This document shows, piece after piece, positions 6,082 to 46,591 of a stretch of DNA of 49,610 bases. The stretch comes from Acetobacteraceae bacterium. Lineage in GTDB: Bacteria; Pseudomonadota; Alphaproteobacteria; Acetobacterales; Acetobacteraceae. The stretch's first letter is position 1, and each line of letters starts with the position of its first letter. Made by a program: the position numbers and the translations under genes. The notes under the pieces were generated by a model, which saw nothing but the letters and a program-made list of their open reading frames with translations, did not search any database and was not told where the DNA came from. The DNA is taken from positions 46,900 through 96,509 of the forward strand of contig PLFB01000131.1 of the NCBI GenBank assembly GCA_003137135.1, given 5' to 3'.

Positions 6082-9000
6082 TCAAACAAATTTTATGTAA
6101 GTCCCCAATGCGCCGTCCGAGGCAAACGTGAAGTCAGACGCGCTGTACGTACCCGAAAAATCGATGACGGCGCTATGCGTGCCATCCGAAATGCTCAGCT
6201 TGCCGCCTTTGCTGGATCGCGTCCAATGCAGCGCGCTCACCAGGGACGATTTGACATTGGTCAGATCGACCAGGTCCGTGCCGCCAAACAGGCTGATCGT
6301 GTCGCCGTTCAGTTCCGCCGCGGTGCCCTTGAACATGTCGCCGAACCCGGCATAGCCGATCAGCGTATCACTGGCGCCGCCGATCAGCGTCTGGTTGGCC
6401 GCCATGGCGGTCAGCTTGTCCTTGCCGGCCGCGCCGTCCACCGTCACGAAGCCCATCTTCGAGAGCAACAGATTGCTGGACGCGCCCAACGTGACGAACA
6501 GATCGGTATCGCCGGTGTTCAGCGTGCCGGTGCCGCTGGTGGTCAGGTCCAGAGAGACGCTGCCGATGCTGTTGGCGGTGATTGCGGCACCCGCATCTTT
6601 CATCGAGGCTTCGATGAACGTGGCGCCGCCACCGGCCAGCACGCTTTGCGTCGCGGCGTCCAGAATGATGGTGTCGGCACCGCTGCCGCCGTCGATCACC
6701 AGGTTGGCGGTGTTGTTGGCGGTGAAGGTCGTGCCGGGAACGGCCGTGTCGATGATTTTGACCAGGGCCACGCCACTGATCGCGGCCCCCATCTGCACGT
6801 CGCCGCCGCCCGAGACGGCCAGGATGTTCGCACCTTTGCCGGCGGCGATGGTGGCGCCGGCGGTGGCCGATGTGACGTAGAAAATGCTGTTGCCCTTGCC
6901 GCTGGAAATCTTCTCACTGTCGGAGCCGACATAAACCGTGTCGTTCCCGTTCCCTAGGATGATGTCCGCGCTGTCGTGATTGCCATAGATGAAAATCCCG
7001 GAGCCGGACGCGCCGGACGCCGCGGTCAACGTGCCGGTAAAGCCGCTGCGCAGGAAGACGCTTTGCTCGGCTTTGCCTTTTGCCTCCACCGCCAGCACCT
7101 GCGAGATATTGGTCAGCGTCGCGGGCGCCGTCATATCGAATGTGCCGCCGCCGGTCAGCTCGAGCGTGTTCAGCCCGCTGCCGCCGATCAGGATATCGCC
7201 GCTGCTCAGGCAATTATTGGCGGCGATAAAGGTGTCATTGCCGGCGCCGCCGACAAAATCGTCGGCGTGCGGCGTCAGCGTGAACACTTCCGGGCCGAGG
7301 CTGGCGACGGTTCCGGTGATGGTGACATAGACCGGGTTCAGCGTGCCGGTATAGCCGCTGGCGTTGCTGCCGGCGGCCTCGATCTCCAGCACCTCGGTAA
7401 ATGTGCCGGCGATGGCGGTGCTCAGCGTCAGTTCGGGGGCGGTGTCGGCGGCGCCGGCGCCGAGGCCGGTGAAGCCGCCAATGCCGGTATTGCTGAAGGC
7501 GGCGCTCGCCGAAACCACCGTAAAGCCGCCGCCCAGCAGGTCCGCGAGACCCACGGCGGTGTTGAGCACTTCCAAATCCGCGGTCAGTGCCGTACCGCCT
7601 TGCGCCGTGCTGCCAAGATTGAGCCGGTAGTCGCGGCTGTCCACGCTGGTGAGCGTGCCGGCACCGCCGGTCTGCGCCACGCCCAGGGTGGCGAAATTAT
7701 CCACGGTGCCGATCAGGCTGATGATCTGGCTGCCCAGGGACGTGATGCCAAGCCCGCTCGTCAGTTCGCCGTCAGAGACTTCAGCCAGCGTGGCGGTGCC
7801 GGAGAAGGTGCCCGAAGCGCCGGTGCTCAGAATCAATTCGAGGTGGGAGTCGTCCATGCCGCCGGCGGCGAGCAGGTTGACGGCGCCGCTCGCCAGCACC
7901 GCCCCGCTGGTGCCGCTGAAGGCGGCGTCCAGACCTTCGGTAAAGGCCGGGTCGGCGGCGGCGTTGCTGAGCGTGAGGAAGGCGGTGCCGGCATCGCCGA
8001 CGTGGATCACGCCAAGATTGATGCTAGTGGAGGAGAGGCTGGGTGCGGCGTAGGCGAAAACCGCGCCGGATACGGCGATTTCGGCGCCGGGCAGCGCTGT
8101 GGTGCCGAGCTGGCTGGTCAGGGCGCCGTCCGAGATCAGGCTGAGATAGGCATCGCCAGAAAAACTGCCGGCCGCGCCGGTGGCAAGGCCGACGCTGAGG
8201 TCCTGGCTGTCAATCTGGCCAGCGCCCAGCAGATTCACGGTGCCCGCGGCGGTAACGCCGGAGGTGCCGGAGAAATACGCGTCCAGCCCCTCCTGGTAGG
8301 CTGCGTTGGGACTGACACCGCTGTTGGCGATGGTCAGCGCCTGCGAATCCGCGCCGCCGACATGCACGTTGCCGAGCGTGACGATGGTGCTGGCGAAGCT
8401 GGGGGCCGCGTAATCGTATTCGACGGCGGAGACGGCAATGGTTTCAAAGCCGAGCGCGGTGGTGCCGAGCGTGTCGATGCCGGCGCCGTCCGAGATCAGG
8501 GCGATGGTGGCTTGCCCGAACTGATCGCCGGGATTGGTGGCGCCGATGCTGATGAGCAGGCCGAAGGACTCGAAGCCGGCGGCGAGTTCCGAGACCGTGC
8601 CGCTGGTGATGAGATTGCCCGAGGCGCCGACGAAGCCGGCGTCGAGATTTTCGGAATACTGACCCTGCGCTGCCGCGTTGGCGAGCAGGATAGAATCGGT
8701 GGGGACGGCGCCCGCGTGGACGTTGCCGAAGTCGATGGACGTATTGCCGAAGAAGTCGGCGATGGCGTAGTTGAAGAAAGTGCCGGTCAGCGTCACGATT
8801 GCGGGCGGCAGGGCCAGGGTGCCGAGGCCGTCGATGCCGTTGCCGTCGCTATCGAAGCCGATGGTGCCGGTGCCGGAGATCAGGCCGCCGGTGGCGGAGG
8901 ACAGCGTGGCACTGATAGCCGTGGCATTGCTGGCCTGGACCGAGATGTTGACCGAACCGCTGCCGGTGACCCCGCCGGTGCCGCCGGCAAAGCCGGCATC

Positions 9001-11484
9001 CAGGTTTTCCTGATAGGCGCCGAAAACGTTTTCGTTGCCGATGGTGTAGAACTCTGTGAGCAGCGCGCCGGCGTGCTGCTCGCCAAAATTGGTCGTGGTG
9101 GGGGAGATTTCAGGATCGGCGTCGCCGTACACCGTGATGTCGGTGCCGCCATGGCCGTCGGAGGACAAGGCGAAGCGGTCGGCCGGGTTGGGATTGGCCA
9201 GGCTGTAGTCCAGCGTGCCGCCGGCGGAGAGCGAGATCAGCAAATTGCCGCCGGCGATACTTGCGCTGGTGGCGGTAAGGCCGGCGAGGTCGATGGTGTC
9301 GGAGGGGGCCAGCGAGACGATCTGCTCGTCGACGCTGGCGGGCGCATCCAGAGTGAGTTTGCCGCCGGTGCCGGCGAAGGTGATGGCGCCGCCGGTGGCG
9401 GCGGTGCCGAGCGTGAGGTCCGCGCCGGCCTCGATGCTGGCGCCGCCGGCGCCCGCAAGCGCGCCGGTCAGCACCAGCGAGCCGCCGGCGGCGATGATGA
9501 CGCCGGCGTCGGTGATCGCGGACTTGACGGTACCGGCGCCGGCGAGCGTGCCGGTTGAGGTGATCGAAAGGGCGGTAGCCGAGAAGGTGACGCCGCCCAG
9601 CGTCAAATCGCCGCTATCGGAAAAGCTGCCGGTGGCGGCAAAATTCCGCCCGGCGAGCAATGCCAGCGTGTTGGTGGCGGCGATGCTGGCGAGTTTCGAG
9701 TCGAGCGATATTTCCGTACCGACGGTGGAATTCAGGGCTTCGATGACGGAGCCGGCGCCGCTGAGAGTGATGCTGGCGGCGTCGGTGGTGATTTTGCTGT
9801 TGGCGGCAAGCTGGAAGGTGGACCCGGCGCCGATTTCATAGGCGCCGCCGGTGAGTGTGGTGCCTTTGAGATTGGAAAATGTTGCAACGCTGCTGATGTC
9901 AAAGATGTCGCCGTTCGAGACGATGATACTGCCCTGATTGGTGAACGTATCGCCGCTCGGCCCATAGATATAAAAGTAACCCCCGCTCGCGCCGGCGGCG
10001 ATGGTGCCCCGGTTGACCAGCGTCGCTTGTGCCCCTGTTTCACTGTAGAGATCGATGTCATCGGAGCTGTCTGCCGCCGACTGCACCACGTCGAGGCTGG
10101 GGCCGAGCGTCAGCGCCTGGACCGGGCCGCCATTGCTGGCGAGGTAAATATTATCGCTCGTGTCGGCGCCGCCGAAATTCAGGGTGGCGTCGTCGAGGCT
10201 GAAATTGTCATCGGTAAAGAGCGCCGCGCCGCTGCCGGCGAGGTTGATGGTGCCGGGCCCGGTGCCGCCGGCGCCGGTAAAATCATCCGTGCCGGCGAGG
10301 TAGAGCCCGCCCCCGGCGACGGTGAGGCCGAGCGTGCCTTCATAGGTCACGCCGTCCAGTTCGCCATCAATGCTCACGAGTGCGCCGCCCGCGTCCACTA
10401 CTGTGCCGCCGGTGATGGTGCCCGAAAGCGTGACGGCGCCGAGCGCGCTGCCGGCGCCGACGGCCAGCGTGCCGGTGTCGAGCAGGTCGCCGGTGATGCC
10501 GACAGTGCCGCCATTGTTGATAATGCCCGCCAGCGCCGAAAGACCAAAAGTGCCGCCGAGATCAAGCAGCGCGCCGCCGCTGACGCTGATCGCGCCGGTA
10601 TTGCTCCAGCTCGTGCTGGCAAGATTGAACACCGTGCCGGCGCCGGTCGCGCTGATCAGGCCGGTATTATTGAAACCGGCGAGACTCGACATGTCAAAAT
10701 GGTCGCCGTTCGAAACGATGATACTGCCCTGATTGGTGAACGTATCGCCGCTCGGCCCGTAGATATAAAAGTAACCCCCGCTCGCGCCGGCGGCGATGGT
10801 GTCGCGGTTGACCAGCGTCGCTTGTGCCCCTGTGTCACTGTAGAGATCGATGTCATCGTCGCTGTCAGTCGCCGACTGCACCACGTCGAGGCTGCCACCG
10901 AGCGTCAGCGCCTGGACCGGGCCGCCATTGCTGGCGAGGTAAATATTATCGCTCGTGCCGGCGCCGCCAAAATTCAGGGTGGCGTCGTTGAGGGCGAAAT
11001 TGTCATCCGTATAGAGCGCGGCGCCGTTGCCGGTGAGGTTGATGGTTCCTGGACCGGTACCGGCCGCGCCGGTGAATGCGTCCGTGCCTTCGAGGTAGAG
11101 ATCGGCGCTGGCGGCCGTCAGATTGAGGGGCGATTCGTCGGTGATATTGTCCCAGGTCGATCCAATGAACGTGAGGGTGCCGCCGGTCTGCGCGATGGTG
11201 GCGCCGATCAGGGTGCCGGTGATATCCAGCAGGCCGCTTTGCAGCGACAACTGATTCGTGGCGCCGGCGAAATCCAGCGTACCCGCGATGGTTAGTTGCG
11301 GCGCGCCGGAATCCAGCGTGAGCGAATCGACCGTGTAGGAATTGCTGGACCCGATGGTGACGTTGCTGCCGGTGCCGGCGATCGTCACGTCCGCCGTGGC
11401 GCTGTTGGCCACCGTGCCGCCCGCCCAGTCCGCAGCCGTGCCCCAAGACCCTTTTTTCCCGCTCGTCCACGTATAGCTCGTCAT
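6082..11484 (-). CDS. Giant secreted beta-repeat protein (choice-of-anchor D and RTX-like repeats)
   Basis: 1800 residues from ATG 11484, with no Sec signal peptide. The N-terminus has a WTSGKKGSWGTAADW segment typical of beta-solenoid repeat proteins. Residues about 130-530 contain a duplicated block offset by 265 residues, nearly identical in DNA. Residues about 787-1263 hold four units of the choice-of-anchor D type, each with a FGxxHAG or LGxVHVG motif and a GLDA(Y/A)FSGTSG-like motif. Residues about 1410-1520 carry RTX-like GGAGNDTF, IGGSG and GNGNDTV calcium-binding turns. The C-terminus has the DGTHSAVIDFSGTYSASDF pattern seen in exported alphaproteobacterial repeat proteins. It is most likely secreted by a type I system and works as an adhesin or surface-layer component. 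No secretion genes are nearby. The regulator at 11792-13405 is encoded upstream on the same strand. Confidence 0.85.
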   Translation of the reverse strand: MTSYTWTSGKKGSWGTAADWAGGTVANSATADVTIAGTGSNVTIGSSNSYTVDSLTLDSGAPQLTIAGTLDFAGATNQLSLQSGLLDITGTLIGATIAQTGGTLTFIGSTWDNITDESPLNLTAASADLYLEGTDAFTGAAGTGPGTINLTGNGAALYTDDNFALNDATLNFGGAGTSDNIYLASNGGPVQALTLGGSLDVVQSATDSDDDIDLYSDTGAQATLVNRDTIAAGASGGYFYIYGPSGDTFTNQGSIIVSNGDHFDMSSLAGFNNTGLISATGAGTVFNLASTSWSNTGAISVSGGALLDLGGTFGLSALAGIINNGGTVGITGDLLDTGTLAVGAGSALGAVTLSGTITGGTVVDAGGALVSIDGELDGVTYEGTLGLTVAGGGLYLAGTDDFTGAGGTGPGTINLAGSGAALFTDDNFSLDDATLNFGGADTSDNIYLASNGGPVQALTLGPSLDVVQSAADSSDDIDLYSETGAQATLVNRGTIAAGASGGYFYIYGPSGDTFTNQGSIIVSNGDIFDISSVATFSNLKGTTLTGGAYEIGAGSTFQLAANSKITTDAASITLSGAGSVIEALNSTVGTEISLDSKLASIAATNTLALLAGRNFAATGSFSDSGDLTLGGVTFSATALSITSTGTLAGAGTVKSAITDAGVIIAAGGSLVLTGALAGAGGASIEAGADLTLGTAATGGAITFAGTGGKLTLDAPASVDEQIVSLAPSDTIDLAGLTATSASIAGGNLLISLSAGGTLDYSLANPNPADRFALSSDGHGGTDITVYGDADPEISPTTTNFGEQHAGALLTEFYTIGNENVFGAYQENLDAGFAGGTGGVTGSGSVNISVQASNATAISATLSSATGGLISGTGTIGFDSDGNGIDGLGTLALPPAIVTLTGTFFNYAIADFFGNTSIDFGNVHAGAVPTDSILLANAAAQGQYSENLDAGFVGASGNLITSGTVSELAAGFESFGLLISIGATNPGDQFGQATIALISDGAGIDTLGTTALGFETIAVSAVEYDYAAPSFASTIVTLGNVHVGGADSQALTIANSGVSPNAAYQEGLDAYFSGTSGVTAAGTVNLLGAGQIDSQDLSVGLATGAAGSFSGDAYLSLISDGALTSQLGTTALPGAEIAVSGAVFAYAAPSLSSTSINLGVIHVGDAGTAFLTLSNAAADPAFTEGLDAAFSGTSGAVLASGAVNLLAAGGMDDSHLELILSTGASGTFSGTATLAEVSDGELTSGLGITSLGSQIISLIGTVDNFATLGVAQTGGAGTLTSVDSRDYRLNLGSTAQGGTALTADLEVLNTAVGLADLLGGGFTVVSASAAFSNTGIGGFTGLGAGAADTAPELTLSTAIAGTFTEVLEIEAAGSNASGYTGTLNPVYVTITGTVASLGPEVFTLTPHADDFVGGAGNDTFIAANNCLSSGDILIGGSGLNTLELTGGGTFDMTAPATLTNISQVLAVEAKGKAEQSVFLRSGFTGTLTAASGASGSGIFIYGNHDSADIILGNGNDTVYVGSDSEKISSGKGNSIFYVTSATAGATIAAGKGANILAVSGGGDVQMGAAISGVALVKIIDTAVPGTTFTANNTANLVIDGGSGADTIILDAATQSVLAGGGATFIEASMKDAGAAITANSIGSVSLDLTTSGTGTLNTGDTDLFVTLGASSNLLLSKMGFVTVDGAAGKDKLTAMAANQTLIGGASDTLIGYAGFGDMFKGTAAELNGDTISLFGGTDLVDLTNVKSSLVSALHWTRSSKGGKLSISDGTHSAVIDFSGTYSASDFTFASDGALGTYIKFV
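9900..10310 (-). repeat. Internal duplication in the giant protein, copy B
   Basis: This stretch is nearly identical in DNA to 10695-11105, at a constant offset of 795 bases (265 codons). The best-conserved part encodes the segment with YFYIYGPSGDTFTNQGS and the IYLASNGGPVQALTLG motif. Identity at silent positions suggests recent duplication or gene conversion. Confidence 0.8.
10695..11105 (-). repeat. Internal duplication in the giant protein, copy A
   Basis: This is the partner of 9900-10310, nearer the start of the gene. The two copies differ by scattered substitutions, for example TTSDN against DTSDN-type changes, while the surrounding repeats are much more diverged. Confidence 0.8.
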
Positions 11485-11791
11485 CTGGCCGACCCCTGGT
11501 CCGCTTGTCCCGTTGCGCCGTCAGACCTGCCACCACCGACCAGCGGAACGCATCGCCAACGCTGCTTTCACGCAACGAAATCGTTTTTGTGACAGAGATC
11601 GCAAACAAGTATGAACCAGGTCCCGTGGAGCTGAACCGCCATCGTGAGGACCAAGCCTATCTTTAATCCCTGCATTCCCAATGTGCGCCAGACGCCTGGC
11701 GACGCTGGAACGACGATATCATTACATAACAATTTCCCATGATCATATCACCCGTTTGGGTGAAGCCCGAACTTTTTTGCGCTGCCGTGCG
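11485..11791. other. Intergenic region upstream of the giant protein
   Basis: This 307-base stretch separates the regulator stop from the giant gene start, both on the reverse strand, so it probably carries the giant gene promoter. Two small dyads are visible: CGCCAG-ACGC-CTGGCG near 11686-11701 and CACCC-GTTT-GGGTG near 11747-11761. Neither has a T-run that would make it a clear terminator. Confidence 0.4.
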
Positions 11792-13405
11792 CTATTCGCT
11801 AACGGCCCAGGCGCCGCGCAAAGCCAGACGAAGAAGCTCGAGCTGGGTTCGGGTGCCAGTTTTTCGAAAAATTGACTTGAGCTGACTGCGAAGTGTCTCT
11901 TTCGAAACATTGAACCGCGCGCTGGCGCTATCAAGCGTGTCTTCGGTCAGGAGCGCCCGCATGAGCCGCGCTTCGGAATGTGTCAGCCCATAAAGCTGGC
12001 GAAGCCGTTCCAATGGCGTGGTGCGGCGCGATTCTGGGTCCCGTACAAACACCGCGGCTGAAGGTTGGCCAGCACCCGCAAGAAGGCCACCGCCGCTCGC
12101 CGGGCCAACCAATATCTCGTATGGCTTCTTACCCGAGGGCCGCGTGATCCTCATAACGCCACCGGGCGGGGATGCTATGACATGTCGTGCTCGTGCGGCA
12201 TCCGCGACAAGATGCCGGAGCGTGTGCCCCTCCGTCGGGGCCACGGCGATGAGTACCCCGTTATTGATTTCGAGCCCGTCACCATGCGCAGCAAATTTTT
12301 CGGCTATTTCGTTCATGCGCAGAATTTTACTTGCCGCATCCACGAGAAACACGGCGGTGTCCTGCGCATCAAGCGCTGCCTCCGCGGTCTGGGCTCGGGT
12401 CTCCAGCAAGGCGATCTGCCGGTTCAGTTGCGAAACACGAAGCAAATGCGGCGCCAGGCGCTGGAGCCGGTCAACGGCATCAAGGTCCTTCTCGGCCGTC
12501 GCGTTCGGGTAGAGTATCGTCACAATCATGTGCCGTGAACCGTCACGCTGCACAATGATGTTATGTCCTGCGGCTAGACCCTGAGGCCGGAGCCAGTCGT
12601 TATAGAATTCCGTTTCCAAAAGCGCCGATTGGGGAAATAACGCGTCCGCGGATGCGGCTACGCCCACGGGTCTTGTGGGAATACGCGTCATCCAGGGATT
12701 GATCTTCAAATAGTGGTCGTTGTACCGCTGTAAGTAATCTTCATCCCAGCCTGACCCAGACACATATAGTCCCGCGATCGCCTTTGGGTCATGTAACAAA
12801 AAAGCGCCCTTTCCGCCGGCATAGGTGGACGTAAGGGCTTCCAAGAACCTGTCCCACCCATCCGGCTGCCCAACCCCCTCATACAGTGCCGAGAGCAGTT
12901 TTGCGTCCAGGTCCTGGGCACTGGGCCGTCGTGGTGACCGGACCGTATCTTGATGGCTCGATTCATCTTCGTTGGACTTGAAAAGAGGGGACGAAAGCGT
13001 GGCCAGATGGCGTATGCGCCGTCGAACGGTGCTGACCGACGGCGGGGTCAAGTTCTGCTCGACGCAGCTCCGCCGGACCTCGGAAATCAGGTCCGGCGCC
13101 GGCATGTTGGGCGCTAAACGCCGCAAATCGACGATGGCATTGTGAACCGTTTGCTCCGTCTCGGGAGCTAAGCGCGACTTGCCGCGGCCGCCGCTGGATG
13201 TCTTCCCAAGCGCAAGCGATGGCTCGCCATTTGAACTGCGAAGCCGGCGAACCAACGTGAACACCTGGCGCTCGGAAACGCCAAGCGCGACGGCGGCTTG
13301 TCTCGCGGCGGTACGAGAACAGTGAGGTTGTTCCGAGAGAGGGACCAGAACAGACAGTCTTCGCTCGGCGTTCCGCTCCGCGATGAAACCGGCGCTTTCT
13401 TTCAT
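11792..13405 (-). CDS. TniA/Mu-type transposase N-terminal region fused to a LuxR-type regulator
   Basis: 537 residues if ATG 13405 is used; the frame is open to 13633 and ATG 13486 is another option. No start has a strong ribosome site. I chose 13405 because homology to TniA begins just after it. Residues about 10-135 match the DNA-binding N-terminus of TniA/TnsB-type transposases: a PLSE segment, an HTH with LGVSERQVFTLVRR, the SGGRGKSRL linker, and a second HTH ending PPSVSTVRRRI. The DDE catalytic domain is absent. After a charged linker, residues about 165-460 resemble the sensory part of orphan LuxR regulators (LYEGVGQPDGWDRFLEAL). Residues 473-537 are a LuxR-type HTH (LTHSEARL, VSKETLRSQLKSIFRKTG). 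It is likely a transcription factor with two kinds of DNA-binding module and could regulate the giant gene downstream. Confidence 0.8.
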   Translation of the reverse strand: MKESAGFIAERNAERRLSVLVPLSEQPHCSRTAARQAAVALGVSERQVFTLVRRLRSSNGEPSLALGKTSSGGRGKSRLAPETEQTVHNAIVDLRRLAPNMPAPDLISEVRRSCVEQNLTPPSVSTVRRRIRHLATLSSPLFKSNEDESSHQDTVRSPRRPSAQDLDAKLLSALYEGVGQPDGWDRFLEALTSTYAGGKGAFLLHDPKAIAGLYVSGSGWDEDYLQRYNDHYLKINPWMTRIPTRPVGVAASADALFPQSALLETEFYNDWLRPQGLAAGHNIIVQRDGSRHMIVTILYPNATAEKDLDAVDRLQRLAPHLLRVSQLNRQIALLETRAQTAEAALDAQDTAVFLVDAASKILRMNEIAEKFAAHGDGLEINNGVLIAVAPTEGHTLRHLVADAARARHVIASPPGGVMRITRPSGKKPYEILVGPASGGGLLAGAGQPSAAVFVRDPESRRTTPLERLRQLYGLTHSEARLMRALLTEDTLDSASARFNVSKETLRSQLKSIFRKTGTRTQLELLRLALRGAWAVSE

Positions 13406-13862
13406 GAACCAGGGGGTGACAAGTGCCGAAGGGTTCCAGGCCGCTGAAGCGGCGTTCGATCGTTGCTGAAAGTGAGTATGATACATCCGGAATAAACGCA
13501 ACAAGAAATGCCATCGAATCGAAGCCGCTTGGGCCGGAATTGGCCGCCGCATACGTGGCGCCGCGCGCATTGAAACGCCACACGGGAACGGCCGGCTTGC
13601 GCGCCACATTGGCGAGCTTCCTGAAATCTCCATTTCGGGGAGGCACGCGCGGGGGGTGATGGGAGGCTAAAGGCGCGACGACGACGAGGTGCGGCCACAC
13701 GCCGGATGTGGGGGATTCACCCCTGCATCGCTCGGGCATGGGACACGACCCGTCACCGGTCCGCGGCAAGGCCTTCATGATTTCCAATGTCCACCAAATT
13801 CTGACCGCTGAGACCGCCTATTACCAGACACACCGGGAGAGGTTATTACTTTTGCTCGAGAA
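13406..13862. other. Intergenic region between regulator fusion and tRNA-Arg
   Basis: Short frames on both strands have no recognisable products. The fusion regulator's frame stays open to 13633 but its extra N-terminal residues look non-coding. Nothing else is seen. Confidence 0.4.
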
Positions 13863-13939
13863 TGGCGTCCCCGGCGGGATTCGAACCCACGGCCCCAGGA
13901 TTAGGAATCCTGTGCTCTATCCTGCTGAGCTACGGGGAC
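13863..13939 (-). tRNA. tRNA-Arg (anticodon CCU)
   Basis: A 77-base cloverleaf reads on the reverse strand. The acceptor stem is GTCCCCG/CGGGGAC with discriminator G and an encoded CCA. The D-arm contains TAGCTCAGCAGG, the anticodon stem CAGGA/TCCTG encloses loop TTCCTAA, and the T-arm contains GGTTCGAATCC. The loop gives anticodon CCU, reading AGG. It lies just downstream of the response regulator on the same strand. Confidence 0.97.
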
Positions 13940-13969
13940 TTGAGAGGGGATTTAGACGAGTTGGGGGGG

Positions 13970-14677
13970 TTAGGGAACCGGGGCGGGATCTAGGCGGTAG
14001 CCGCCGCCTTCGGTGAGGAGGATTTTGGCCAGGGTGGGGTCGGGCTCGATTTTTTGGCGCAGGCGATAGACATGGGTTTCCAGCGTGTGGGTGGTGACGG
14101 CGGCGTTGTAGCCCCAGACTTCGTTGAGCAGGACCTGGCGCGCGACGGGTTTGCCGGCGGCGCGGTAGAGGAATTTTAGGATCGCGGCCTCTTTGTCTGT
14201 CAGGCGGATGCGTTTGTTTTTGATGGGTTCCAGCAGCTGCTTGGCGGCGGGCCGAAAAACGTAGGGGCCGATGGTGAAGACGGCGTCTTCGCTGTTTTCG
14301 AAACTGCGGAGCTGGGCACGGAGGCGGGCCAATAATTCGTTGAGGCGGAAGGGTTTGGCGATGTAGTCGTTGGCGCCGGAATCGAGGCCGCGGACGATGT
14401 CCGATTCTTCGGCGGAGCCGGTGAGCATGATGATGGGGACTTTGATGCCGCGCTTGCGCAGGGCGCGGCAGAAATCGCGGCCGTCGCCGTCGGGGAGGCC
14501 GACGTCGAGGAGGATGGCGTCGTAGCGGGCATCTGGAGCGGCGAGTTTGGCGTCCGCGGCAGCCAGACAATCGGCTTCGGTGGGCAGGAATTCGCCATCG
14601 TGTTCGAGTTGCTCGACCAAAGCGGAGCGCAAGGCGGTGTCGTCGTCAATGACGAGTATGGGGTGTTGGCTGGGCAT
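13970..14677 (-). CDS. OmpR-family response regulator
   Basis: 235 residues. The receiver domain has the acidic cluster DDD at 11-13, phospho-acceptor Asp near 58 (LLDVGLPDGDG), Thr near 86 (MLTGS) and Lys near 108 (AKPF). A winged-helix effector domain follows at about 140-230, with LTDKEAAILKFLYRAAGK and THTLETHVYRLRQKIEPD. It is a DNA-binding transcription regulator activated by phosphorylation. No histidine kinase is adjacent, so it is an orphan in this window. It is divergent from ribA, with about 117 bases between their starts. Confidence 0.93.
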   Translation of the reverse strand: MPSQHPILVIDDDTALRSALVEQLEHDGEFLPTEADCLAAADAKLAAPDARYDAILLDVGLPDGDGRDFCRALRKRGIKVPIIMLTGSAEESDIVRGLDSGANDYIAKPFRLNELLARLRAQLRSFENSEDAVFTIGPYVFRPAAKQLLEPIKNKRIRLTDKEAAILKFLYRAAGKPVARQVLLNEVWGYNAAVTTHTLETHVYRLRQKIEPDPTLAKILLTEGGGYRLDPAPVP

Positions 14678-25777: not shown

Positions 25778-26020
25778 GCTTTTGGACGTCCTTCGTTTGG
25801 GCGAAGAGGATAAAACATGACGAGGCAGGCGGTGTCATGGAGAATGAATGCTTGCTTCTCTGGAGCCGTCAAATTCGGTTCGGCAGCGCCGTGATCGGCC
25901 GTTTTGCCATGCGCTTTGCCACGGACTGTGGCATTTTTGCTATTTGCAGCCCTTGGCGCCTTTGTTACAAAATTTTTTGCGCAATTGTTCATTTTTGCTA
26001 CTTAAGGTTTTCGATCTGTT

Positions 26021-40267: not shown

Positions 40268-41392
40268 ATGCAGCTATCGCTTCAGAATTTCACGACTTTG
40301 CTGGATGGCATGGCGGCCGCGGTGCAGGGTGCCGCGAGCGCTTTGCTCGACCTCACCGTTGGGTCGGTATTGCGGGCGATTCTGGAGGCCAACGCGTCGC
40401 TGGCGCTTTGGCTGCAATGGCTGATCGTGCAGGTGCTCGCGACCACGCGGCTGGCGACGAGTACAGGTTCGGACTGTGACAGTTTCGGCGCCGATTTTGG
40501 ATTTTTCCGGCTTCCGGCCGCCGCGGCGACGGGCGCTGTGACGTTTTCGCGGTTCACCCCGAGCGTCGCGGCGTTCATTCCGGTCGGCACGAATGTGACC
40601 ACGTCGGATAACTCGCAGAGCTTTACGGTCATCGCGGATACGACGAACCCGGCGTTCAATGCCGCCGGCTCAGGCTATAATCTGGCGGGCGGAATCGCGA
40701 GTTTGACCGTGCTGGCCGCTGCGGCCAGTGCTGGTAGCGCAGGCAATGTGCAACCCGGTAGTATCTCTGTGATCTCGTCGGCGATCTCTGGCGTCGATAC
40801 GGTGACTAACGCTTTGGCGTTCGCGGGTGGCGTCGATGCCGAGAGCGATGCCGCGTTCCGAACCCGGTTTGGCAGCTATCTGGGGAGCCTTTCAAAGGCC
40901 ACCGATGCGGCGATCGGCTCGGCGATCTTGGGCATCCAGCAGGGCCTGAGCTACGTGATCAACGAAAACATCAATCAGGCGGGTGCTGCGCAGATGGGGA
41001 ATTTCGTGGTCACCGTGGATGATGGGTCGGGCGCGCCGCCGGCCGCTCTCATTTCGAATGTGCAGCAAATTGTTGAAGCGCTGCGGCCGGTGGGAAGCAG
41101 TTTTGCGGTGCAGGGGCCGGTGGTGCTGCTGGCCGAGGTATCGATGACGTTGAGCACCCAGGCCGGGGTCTCGCACCAAATCGTGGTCGCCGCCGTGGCT
41201 GGCGCCATCGAGAGTTATATCGACGGCTTGAGCGTTGGGGCGACGCTGAATTATACCAGGTTGGCGCAATTGGCTTACGATGCCTCCAGCGCTGTCACCA
41301 ATGTCTCGGCGGTGGTGTTGAACGGCGGCACGAGCGATCTTGTACCGCCGCTGTTTGGCGCGGTGCGGCCGGGTACGGTCGCGGTTTCGTAA
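40268..41392 (+). CDS. Baseplate J-like protein
   Basis: 374 residues. ALLDLTVGSVLRAILEANAS near the N-terminus, DAESDAAFRTRFGSYLGSLS in the middle and the C-terminal GVSHQIVVAAVAGAIESYID segment are hallmarks of P2 gpJ-type wedge proteins. With the W- and I-like genes it builds the baseplate wedge. The central domain (about 90-180) is beta-rich. Confidence 0.92.
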   Translation: MQLSLQNFTTLLDGMAAAVQGAASALLDLTVGSVLRAILEANASLALWLQWLIVQVLATTRLATSTGSDCDSFGADFGFFRLPAAAATGAVTFSRFTPSVAAFIPVGTNVTTSDNSQSFTVIADTTNPAFNAAGSGYNLAGGIASLTVLAAAASAGSAGNVQPGSISVISSAISGVDTVTNALAFAGGVDAESDAAFRTRFGSYLGSLSKATDAAIGSAILGIQQGLSYVINENINQAGAAQMGNFVVTVDDGSGAPPAALISNVQQIVEALRPVGSSFAVQGPVVLLAEVSMTLSTQAGVSHQIVVAAVAGAIESYIDGLSVGATLNYTRLAQLAYDASSAVTNVSAVVLNGGTSDLVPPLFGAVRPGTVAVS

Positions 41393-44032: not shown

Positions 44033-46591
44033 ATGCCAACGATCGGACAATTGCCGCTGGCGAATTCCGTTTCGGACTCGGATTTGCTGGCGATCTTTCA
44101 GAACGACCAGACCCTGGCGGCGACGCGCGCGCAGATCCTATCCGGCGTGCAGCTCGCGATCACGGTGCCGCAGAACACGCTGCTGGCGGGTGTGAATCCA
44201 GGGCTCAGCGCGCCGGTGCCGGTGAACATCGGCGCCAATCTGACGTTGACCGGCACGACGCTTTCCGCCAACGCCACGCCATTCAGCATCCCGGGCCTGC
44301 CGACCGGTAACACCCCCGCCACGTCTGACCTGGTGCCGATCGGCCAAGGCGGCAGCAACGTGAGCGTGAGTTACGCCAATTTCATGGCGGGCATCGGCGG
44401 CGTTCCGGGTTTGCCCGGTGGCGGGCTGACGGCCAAGGCGACCGAGGGCACCGCGACCAGAACGCTCGCGGCGCTGGCGATGAACGCTGTTTCGATCGAG
44501 GATTTTGGCGCGGTCGGCAACGGCACGACCGATGACAGCGGGGCTCTGCTGGCGGCGATCGCCTCGGGCAATCCGGTGCGGTTTGGCGCCAACACTTATG
44601 CCATCGTCGGCGAGTGCGACATATCGGCAGCGTCGTGCACGCTGCTCGGCGTGCCGGGGCAGACCATTTTGACGCGGCCGTCCCAGTCAAAATCGGGGAC
44701 CTCGAGTCCGGCGGCGTGGTTGAGTTTTTCGAGCGCGGCCGTGATCATCGACGGGATCACGTTTGATGCGAACAGCACGATCAAAAGCAATGTTTATGGC
44801 GTGGCGATCCAGGCGAGTTGCACCAAGTCGGTCATAACCCGCTGCGTCTTCCGCAACGCCGAAGGCGGCGCCTACGGTTCCGGCATCACCTATCTTGCGA
44901 GCGATCCGACGATCACGCAGCACCACATCGACAACTGCGAATTCTACGGCAACGCGGAACACGGTTTGTACGCGATGGCCACCGACGCGCTGAGCGTCAC
45001 CAATTGCCGGGCGCATGACAACGGCGGCAACGGCATTTATGTCGATAGCCAGGATCCGAATTTTGTCCTGAAAGTGCGCAATCTGCAGGTGGTCTCCAAC
45101 ACCTGCTGGAACAATATCTGCGGCATCATCGTCGGGAATTTCAATACCACGAATAACAACGGCAACGTCATCTACAGCAACGCGAACCCGGACATTCTGG
45201 GCGCGCTGATCGCCTCGAATAATTGCTACTCCAACCGCAATTACGGGATTTATATCTCCGGCCGAAATATTCTGGTGACGGGCAACCTTTGCGCGAATAA
45301 CAGCTCGGCCTTCGCGGCGGGTGCCGGCATTCTGTGCGATACAAGCTATTGCCGGGTCTCCGGTAATATGATCACCGGCGCGTCCGCGTTCGGGATCGAC
45401 TGCGGCGGTTCGATTTATACGGATGTTTCGGATAATTACGTCGATGGACCCGTATCGGGGATCAATATCGGCGGCGGCCAGAACTGCATGGCGCGCAATA
45501 ATTTTTTGCAAGACTGCACCGGCGTGGGAATATCCGTGCAGAACGTCGAATCCGACGGCGCCGGCCACGATTTCAATCTGGCTTGCAGCGATCTGACGAT
45601 TTCCGGCAACTGGATCACGACCTCCGGCTTCGTGATCGGCATCCTGCTGCGTGACGCGCCGCAGAATATCGTCATCACCGACAACATCATCCTTGGCGAA
45701 CCCGGCGCCTACCTGCCCAATGCGATTTCGGCCTATACCGACAGCATCATCATCAAGCGCAATCTGTCGAACTATGTCTCGCGCTGGGCGGTCAATCCGA
45801 CGCTGATCAACGGTGTCTATACGCTGGTGGTCCCGGATGTCGCCGATGCCGTGAGCATCAATCAGGCGACCGCGCCGGTGGCCTCGATCATCACCGCGCA
45901 AGCCAGCGCGACGGTCGGCCAGATCGTGTTCTGCAAGGTGGTCAATGGCGGCAGCGGCTATAGCAGCGCGACCATAAGCTTCTCCGGCACCGGCACCGGT
46001 GCTGCCGCCACCGTCTGGCTCTCCGGCGGCGCGGTGCTGGGCATCCAGATGACCAATTTTGGCTCAGGCTATTCCGCGGGGACGACGGCGAACATCAGCG
46101 GCAACGGCAGCGGCGCCACGGTGACGGTGCAGGTGGGATTGCCGGTATGGCAAAATCGCGAGCTGACCATTGATTGTTTGACAAATGTGACGTTCGCCGA
46201 CGCGGGCAGTTCTCCGGCGCAATTCAACTGGACGAACGCGCCGATCACGGTGCCGGCCAATGCGTCCATCGACTGGATCGGCTATGGCGGCGGCTGGCGG
46301 GCGGCGCGGTTCTCGCAGAATGACTATGTCTCGCCCAACGGTGACGGCAGCCTCACTTTGCGCACGCAGTCGGGCGATATCTCGATGCACCCATCCGGTG
46401 CGGGCATGCTGCGCATTATTTCCGACGTCGAGCCGGTCGGCGCGGTCGAGCTGATCGGCCGCGGCTCGCCCTTGAACGTGGTATCGGCGCCCCCTGGCTC
46501 AACGTTTAGGAACCTGAACGGCGGCGTCGGCGGCACGTTCTGGGTGAAGCAGGCGGGGACGGGGAATACGAACTGGGTCGCGGTCGCCTAG
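44033..46591 (+). CDS. Tailspike/fibre with right-handed beta-helix
   Basis: 852 residues. A short attachment region (MPTIGQLPLANSVSDSDLL) and a linker lead to IEDFGAVGNGTTDDSGALLA near residue 155, the entry signature of pectate-lyase-like tailspikes. Then follows a long parallel beta-helix (about 180-600) with regular N/G-containing turns such as NCRAHDNGGNGIYV and NNCYSNRNYGIYISGRN. Residues about 630-700 carry GGSGYSSATISFSGTGTG-type repeats, followed by a C-terminal compact domain. Such proteins bind and often cleave capsular or O-antigen polysaccharide. Catalytic residues cannot be assigned by eye. Confidence 0.82.
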   Translation: MPTIGQLPLANSVSDSDLLAIFQNDQTLAATRAQILSGVQLAITVPQNTLLAGVNPGLSAPVPVNIGANLTLTGTTLSANATPFSIPGLPTGNTPATSDLVPIGQGGSNVSVSYANFMAGIGGVPGLPGGGLTAKATEGTATRTLAALAMNAVSIEDFGAVGNGTTDDSGALLAAIASGNPVRFGANTYAIVGECDISAASCTLLGVPGQTILTRPSQSKSGTSSPAAWLSFSSAAVIIDGITFDANSTIKSNVYGVAIQASCTKSVITRCVFRNAEGGAYGSGITYLASDPTITQHHIDNCEFYGNAEHGLYAMATDALSVTNCRAHDNGGNGIYVDSQDPNFVLKVRNLQVVSNTCWNNICGIIVGNFNTTNNNGNVIYSNANPDILGALIASNNCYSNRNYGIYISGRNILVTGNLCANNSSAFAAGAGILCDTSYCRVSGNMITGASAFGIDCGGSIYTDVSDNYVDGPVSGINIGGGQNCMARNNFLQDCTGVGISVQNVESDGAGHDFNLACSDLTISGNWITTSGFVIGILLRDAPQNIVITDNIILGEPGAYLPNAISAYTDSIIIKRNLSNYVSRWAVNPTLINGVYTLVVPDVADAVSINQATAPVASIITAQASATVGQIVFCKVVNGGSGYSSATISFSGTGTGAAATVWLSGGAVLGIQMTNFGSGYSAGTTANISGNGSGATVTVQVGLPVWQNRELTIDCLTNVTFADAGSSPAQFNWTNAPITVPANASIDWIGYGGGWRAARFSQNDYVSPNGDGSLTLRTQSGDISMHPSGAGMLRIISDVEPVGAVELIGRGSPLNVVSAPPGSTFRNLNGGVGGTFWVKQAGTGNTNWVAVA

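Follow-up and report, generated by a model that had tools for sequence, protein, structure and literature searches.

A chimeric TniA–LuxR reading frame next to a giant surface-type gene, with a candidate operator dyad between the two

In the window, i.e. the whole stretch of 49,610 nucleotides that was analysed, a minus-strand open reading frame of 537 amino acids (11792–13405, stop codon at 11792–11794) joins the DNA-binding region of a TniA/TnsB transposase to an orphan LuxR-type regulator. The chimera is real, probably translated as one protein and, so far, a singleton. It would most likely control the neighbouring giant gene through a dyad located between the two genes.

The uninterrupted frame that the sequence-only reading had claimed was located on the minus strand, where an ORF check from 13405 to 11792 gave 537 codons without stop or frameshift. 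The frame remains open in the 5′ direction to about 13666, with additional ATG codons up to 13633. Codon likelihood placed the ORF's own frame at the top of all six over residues 1–137 and 163–537. Its lead was marginal over residues 9–70, and in the 25-residue linker a plus-strand frame scored higher. As the own frame is best in both modules and the extension upstream of 13405 is not coding-like, 13405 is the likeliest translation start. No Shine–Dalgarno-like sequence was seen before 13405 when judged by eye, and no sigma-70-type promoter was found in 11300–14000.

Residues 9–137 (12995–13381, minus strand) constitute a TniA/TnsB module with two DNA-binding segments. They match a 627-aa TniA frame from a genome of the same class with 40% identity (E = 1.8e-22), and TniAs on Methylomonas and Sphingopyxis plasmids with 43–45% identity (E = 1e-14 to 1e-15). 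The proposed TniA/TnsB-like N-terminus is borne out by these significant matches, which cover the stretch (residues 10–135) where the absence of any TniA- or Mu-type match was to have counted against it. The first HTH, LGVSERQVFTLVRR, at residues about 34–64 (13214–13306, minus strand), is recognised from the TniA alignment and from two matches under the Pfam cut-off, HTH_29 at residues 34–85 (E = 2.9e-4, 21.3 bits, cut-off 28.1) and HTH_23 at residues 35–64. The second, at residues about 101–135 (13001–13105, minus strand) and including PPSVSTVRRRI, is identified by alignment and a profile match as the equivalent of MuA I-gamma and of the second TnsB domain. Both of the HTH segments described for the N-terminus were thus recovered. 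The TniA profile, built from 12 sequences with the fusion among them, matched ShTnsB residues 41–158 at 1e-7 and Tn6677 TnsB at 6e-4, with weak matches to Tn7 TnsB (0.011) and MuA I-gamma (0.066). The DNA-binding domains of ShTnsB are named NTD1 and NTD2 (PMC9527255). HTH_Tnp_Mu_2 was detected in 3 of the 12 aligned profile members and is absent from the fusion itself, for which NCBIfam gave a weak IS481-transposase match (22 bits, cut-off 224). A TniA DDE query did not match the window frame, in agreement with the supposed loss of this domain. By homology, the fusion appears to contain the N-terminal end-binding domains of a TniA/TnsB transposase, and the DDE catalytic domain is absent. The Sphingopyxis and Methylomonas TniA genes start 14–16 codons ahead of the matching stretch, so that the start of the fusion lies close to a natural TniA N-terminus; some other TniAs carry longer N-terminal leaders.

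Conservation of the front module was evaluated against 31 TniA rows obtained from 40 front-module hits, after dropping three window-locus copies, the repeats L081 and L114, the fragment L111 and three sequences that were identical or shorter than 100 aa. The fusion retains both HTH recognition stretches (LGVSERQVF and PPSVSTVRRRI) in the TniA alignment. Of the 25 columns that at least 65% of the TniAs have in common it keeps 19 (0.76), within the span of 0.50–0.92 seen for the 31 rows, and 22 of these rows score higher than the fusion on this set. Among columns conserved in at least half of the sequences 28 of 46 are kept, or 30 when like residues are counted, and 29 of the 31 rows exceed the fusion on this wider set with like residues included. 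Among the lost positions are a nearly invariant Trp and a YL pair. In the 32-row tree, made from the 31 TniA rows and the fusion, the latter clusters with seven TniAs, of which four are plasmid-borne, with a support of 92/86 that is just below the tree tool's own mark. Its terminal branch (1.24) is the longest in this clade, the others ranging between 0.09 and 0.60; no branch was marked as excessively long by the tool. Five of 22 family-conserved positions are lost in the fusion, compared to 1–4 of 22–24 in the seven clade members. Family-conserved columns are retained only weakly better than clade-only columns (p = 0.05–0.25, depending on threshold). Considering the lost positions and the long branch, the front module may be under relaxed constraint. 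When neutral change was simulated, 22%, 3% and 0.6% of the runs were without stop after 40, 80 and 120 residue changes, respectively. Openness alone is no proof of DNA binding, as translation of the LuxR part needs an open frame anyway.

Residues 163–537 (11795–12919, minus strand) were assigned to a LuxR-type regulator module by alignment to relatives, with a sensor-like region containing TEFYNDWLRPQ and a C-terminal LuxR HTH. The module aligns over its full length with 23 relatives (20–27% identity); the underlying family alignment, A3, holds 23 proteins from 25 loci of a collection of 85k species. A LuxR paralogue in the same genome is 50% identical to the fusion over 365 residues without gaps, and the recognition helices of the pair are nearly identical (KETLRSQLKS and RETLRTQLKS). 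Pfam gave no GerE match in the fusion ORF itself and found GerE in 7 of 24 A3 members; the LuxR label, and with it the C-terminal LuxR/GerE HTH, therefore derives from the relatives, whose annotations read helix-turn-helix or LuxR C-terminal-related regulator. With a profile built from nine HTH regions, GerE, RcsB, VpsT and TraR were retrieved among solved structures, the top hit being a designed repeat protein without a passing stretch. An autoinducer-binding or receiver domain was not matched by Pfam in the ORF, PAS_4 and GAF were each found in one of the 24 members, and the sensor-like region displays no clear known domain. The paralogue and the GerE matches of the relatives support the orphan LuxR regulator claimed at the C-terminal side and, with both homologies found within one frame, the in-frame join to a TniA-like region is confirmed.

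The two modules are connected by a linker, residues 138–162 (12920–12994, minus strand), in which no homology to either parent was recognised and which has no in-frame ATG, GTG or TTG. The expected LuxR start falls at about residue 162. In 67 of 67 luxR relatives an in-frame ATG, GTG or TTG was found at −25 to +12 residues of this position (ATG in 55), and the same stretch of the fusion contains none; 15 further frames, in which the alignment starts later, were dropped, and CTG and rarer starts lie outside the count. The chance level is 8%, as 185 of 2298 internal stretches of the same length have no such codon. The nearest in-frame starts in the fusion are two TTG codons, at residue 119 in the TniA part and at residue 188 in the conserved LuxR part. 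As the fusion lacks the LuxR start that all 67 relatives possess, translation is predicted to begin, most likely, within the transposase part. The missing start and the open frame across the linker together favour one translated protein.

A second TniA–LuxR fused protein was not found in the source genome or 37 congeners (a genus set of 38 genomes), nor in genome samples of the order (395), class (385) and phylum (284), which overlap and each include the source genome. The same holds for 72,556 plasmid records, 50,697 phage records and viral contigs, and for one scan of the 85k-species collection by peptide patterns, which reaches close relatives only. Queries were either the front module or the whole protein. 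In the larger samples the best 3–13 candidates per genome were scored (9 in class and order, 13 in phylum), so a fusion may have been missed. Front-module matches, i.e. TniAs or fragments, were observed in 2 of the 37 other congeners, in 22 other genomes of the order sample and 5 of the class sample (best 9 candidates per genome), and in 9 of the phylum sample (best 13). The 54 front-module frames in 201 fetched loci comprise 43 that match the TniA DDE query, five overlapping window copies, and six with neither a DDE nor a LuxR match, some of them perhaps truncated at contig ends. Among 100 frames matching the LuxR profile, both modules were present in window-locus copies only. None of the 219 plasmid records matching the full protein reached a coverage of at least 80%. 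In the 85k-species collection 25 loci match the LuxR part; a few of these alignments extend into the linker or front, and they do so without a front-module match. A 701-aa luxR frame (L020) was considered as a fusion and rejected, having no TniA part. On a Pigmentibacter ruber plasmid (L119:2674-3222), a 182-aa ORF that corresponds to a TniA N-terminus, gives no DDE match and is annotated as hypothetical lies immediately before an IS6 transposase gene.

Conservation of the fused layout in other genomes, as envisaged in the sequence-only reading, did not hold in the genome, plasmid, phage and viral sets searched. Retention of the fusion by selection in more than one genome was not observed, and conservation lends function no support since no second fused protein was found. 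The same reading was to be given up if fused homologues were lacking and translation started after the transposase part. The former is what was found, while the start-codon evidence points the opposite way. Both parent families are well known; no TniA–LuxR fusion was reported in the literature searched, and as far as this literature goes the combination is new.

The candidate operator dyad TCACCCGTTTGGGTGA (11748–11763, plus-strand sequence) lies in the gap between the two genes, 28 nt from the stop codon of the fusion and 263 nt ahead of the giant ORF. The gaps behind both luxR copies of the genome share TCACCC-N4-GGGTGA, which occurs at exactly two sites in the 4.2 Mb assembly, each just behind a luxR copy and ahead of a surface-type gene. 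The operator census included 83 luxR frames with that of the window, a few being fragments of one gene and some loci overlapping. The exact dyad was present in 5 of the 81 other luxR frames, at a distance of 5–111 nt, and nowhere else in those loci; the arms at spacings of 0–3 and 5–11 did not occur in luxR loci. Loci with the exact dyad by a luxR gene are L128:1380-1395, L035, L036, L046, L047, L053 and L204. A wider form, C[AT]CCC-N4-GGG[AT]G, gave 18 sites within 200 nt of luxR compared to two elsewhere in 540,702 nt, a total that contains repeats because some census loci overlap. It was found within 200 nt of 17 of the 83 luxR frames and not of the remaining 66, and four permuted-arm controls gave no site near luxR and seven elsewhere. 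The corresponding Fisher value of 2e-20 is flattered, as the wider form was picked after viewing the same loci and the loci overlap. In a plasmid hold-out of 16 luxR loci, hand-picked for different organisms from the 219 matching records, the wider dyad was found once near luxR and three times elsewhere (p = 0.22), so that its association with luxR was not borne out on plasmids; the single near site (L204) has full TCACCC arms. Class-wide, the exact dyad is present in 97 of 367 genomes, and of 29 dyad loci fetched outside the source genome a single one, which the census already included, contains this LuxR. Assignment of the dyad to a terminator was rejected: 9 of the 18 wider-form sites are upstream of their luxR gene, and RNA folding of the dyad stretch is ordinary (z = −0.76). 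Judged from sequence, the dyad is a likely candidate for the operator of the LuxR module, and it fits part of the LuxR family, including the two members of the source genome.

A variant dyad, CCTCCC-N4-GGGAG, is located 0–183 nt upstream of six congener luxR genes (L009, L011, L013, L015, L020 and L025), which share the recognition-helix stretch TARNYSKK. Helix and dyad could possibly represent a specificity code; L042 and L043, with the same arms but different helices, count against it.

The presumed target gene encodes a giant repetitive protein of surface or secreted type (1800 aa, choice-of-anchor D domains; 6082–11484, minus strand). It lies 307 nt downstream of the fusion on the same strand, and the position assigned to the fusion, upstream of a giant surface protein, is accordingly correct. 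Partial relatives of the giant gene were found in 4 of the 37 other congeners. About 180 nt behind the luxR paralogue, an 895-aa repetitive protein is encoded that was called surface-type by composition, without NCBIfam match, and that resembles the giant only weakly, over a short stretch of 136 residues (31%). In 26 luxR loci, among them that of the paralogue, 8 of the 51 direct luxR neighbours are surface-like ORFs, compared to 3 of 139 other ORFs (p = 0.0014), with surface-like defined by composition cut-offs set in this analysis. Six of the 26 loci have such a neighbour, and three of the eight ORFs stem from one locus. Family luxR genes adjoin RTX-like, VCBS or other repetitive secreted-type genes in L055, L056, L063, L077, L078, L128 and L208.

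On its other side, the fusion gene is found 457 nt downstream of a tRNA-Arg (CCT) gene (13863–13939, minus strand). From 30 fetched loci of this tRNA/response-regulator region, including that of the window, seven congener loci contain the tRNA and at least 600 nt behind it. The genes that follow differ among these seven (permease-like, agmatinase-like, surface-type, transposase-like, recombinase-like and others, identified by reading translations without a family search). The 3′ side of the tRNA gene, which holds the fusion, thus appears to be a variable site among the readable congeners and a probable insertion hotspot. No direct repeats were found in 13380–13870, and the wider stretch around the fusion contains one 23-nt repeat pair at 74%. 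Neither transposon ends, for which repeats were checked over 13380–13870, nor adjacent members of the TniB or TniQ families were detected, the latter among the 21 other ORFs of the window that were scanned. Tightly packed plus-strand ORFs at 26000–48800, including Baseplate_J (40268–41392) and a beta-helix protein (44033–46591), are perhaps a prophage or phage-tail-like cluster.

Taken together, the following course of events is proposed. A TniA-type transposon gene would have lost its catalytic part, and its first ~137 codons would have become joined in frame, via the 25-residue linker, to a resident orphan luxR that, judging by its anatomy, is without the usual start codon of its own. The protein would be translated from about 13405. 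That the dyad is so rare and lies where it does, together with the paralogous pair, suggests that the LuxR half binds TCACCC-N4-GGGTGA at 11748–11763, in the gap that separates its stop codon from the giant gene, and that it controls the giant gene and perhaps also itself. In the weakest step, the fold of the TniA half, with its two DNA-binding domains, would be preserved and would give the protein an accessory anchor on DNA. As a whole, this account of a chimeric regulator, with the LuxR half acting on the dyad and the TniA half as anchor, is held to have slightly less than an even chance of being right. A more far-reaching version, in which the TniA module and the LuxR half on its own dyad bridge two DNA sites to control the giant surface protein, and transposon-end specificity adds a regulon that the unfused paralogue lacks, is regarded as unlikely. 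Conversely, the front module could be a passive leader. The fusion would then be translated with a working LuxR half, and the TniA part would supply nothing but a start codon and ribosome site after loss of the native luxR start, without specific DNA binding. The long terminal branch of the fusion, its five lost family-conserved positions and the missing Trp and YL core positions are consistent with such a role, as is the fact that translation of LuxR requires an open frame whether or not DNA is bound. Retention of both HTH recognition stretches and a share of conserved columns within the TniA range argue against it. We consider the passive leader a tentative explanation with a substantial claim, and slightly favour a front module that may work as an accessory DNA-binding module.

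The remaining alternatives question the gene itself. A deletion may have fused a transposon fragment and luxR by accident, leaving a decaying gene that is no longer properly made or whose LuxR part is initiated from CTG or another rare codon, which the start-codon count would not have registered. A relic of this kind would fit the variable side of the tRNA gene, the six front-module frames without DDE (some perhaps cut by contig ends), and the codon usage of the fusion, which is less typical than that of the 12 window genes used to build the codon model. Still, 537 codons free of stop or frameshift, the top rank of the own frame in both modules, a LuxR half that is intact and gap-free relative to its paralogue, and the matching dyad retained beside the fusion render decay improbable. 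An assembly error is more improbable still. Although the join is known from a single assembly of 285 contigs with 83.8% completeness, it sits in frame within a 98-kb contig. No separate tniA copy was found in the assembly, and a search for repeats of the region returned tRNA matches only.

Residues 9–137 of the chimeric regulator align with the end-binding region of TniA/TnsB transposases (Tn5053- and Tn7-like elements, NTD1 and NTD2 of ShTnsB, I-beta and I-gamma of MuA). The nearest TniA relatives reside on Methylomonas and Sphingopyxis plasmids, where the Sphingopyxis gene adjoins tniB, tniQ and a recombinase gene. In contrast to these transposases, the fusion has no DDE domain and no TniB or TniQ family member among the scanned ORFs of the window, and it is not expected to transpose. 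With orphan LuxR-type regulators that share the TEFYNDWLRPQ region it has residues 163–537 in common from end to end, but it carries a transposase region where all 67 relatives have a start codon. For this LuxR family, which has only general annotation and some members of which adjoin surface or RTX-type genes, the candidate operator TCACCC-N4-GGGTGA represents a testable target. Moreover, the chimera and an intact, unfused paralogue in one genome form a ready pair for testing what the captured transposase module adds.

In eukaryotes, new regulators are known to have arisen by fusion of the DNA-binding domain of a transposase to a host protein. The present chimera shares this design, a transposase DNA-binding domain combined with a host regulatory protein, but it is bacterial, of Mu/TniA type and found in one genome only. 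Among bacteria, TldR, which is derived from TnpB, is likewise a transposon-derived protein turned gene regulator. TldR acts as a transcription factor (PMC13418256). It is RNA-guided, rather than a protein-only HTH module joined to a host regulator. Regulators of the Ner/SfsB type, recruited from phage Mu, are described as mobile-element DNA-binding proteins put to host control (PMC8987985). These are small regulators taken over whole, whereas in the chimera the end-binding part of a transposase is fused to a different regulator. The bacterial recruitments represented by TldR and Ner/SfsB are of other kinds than the TniA–LuxR chimera.
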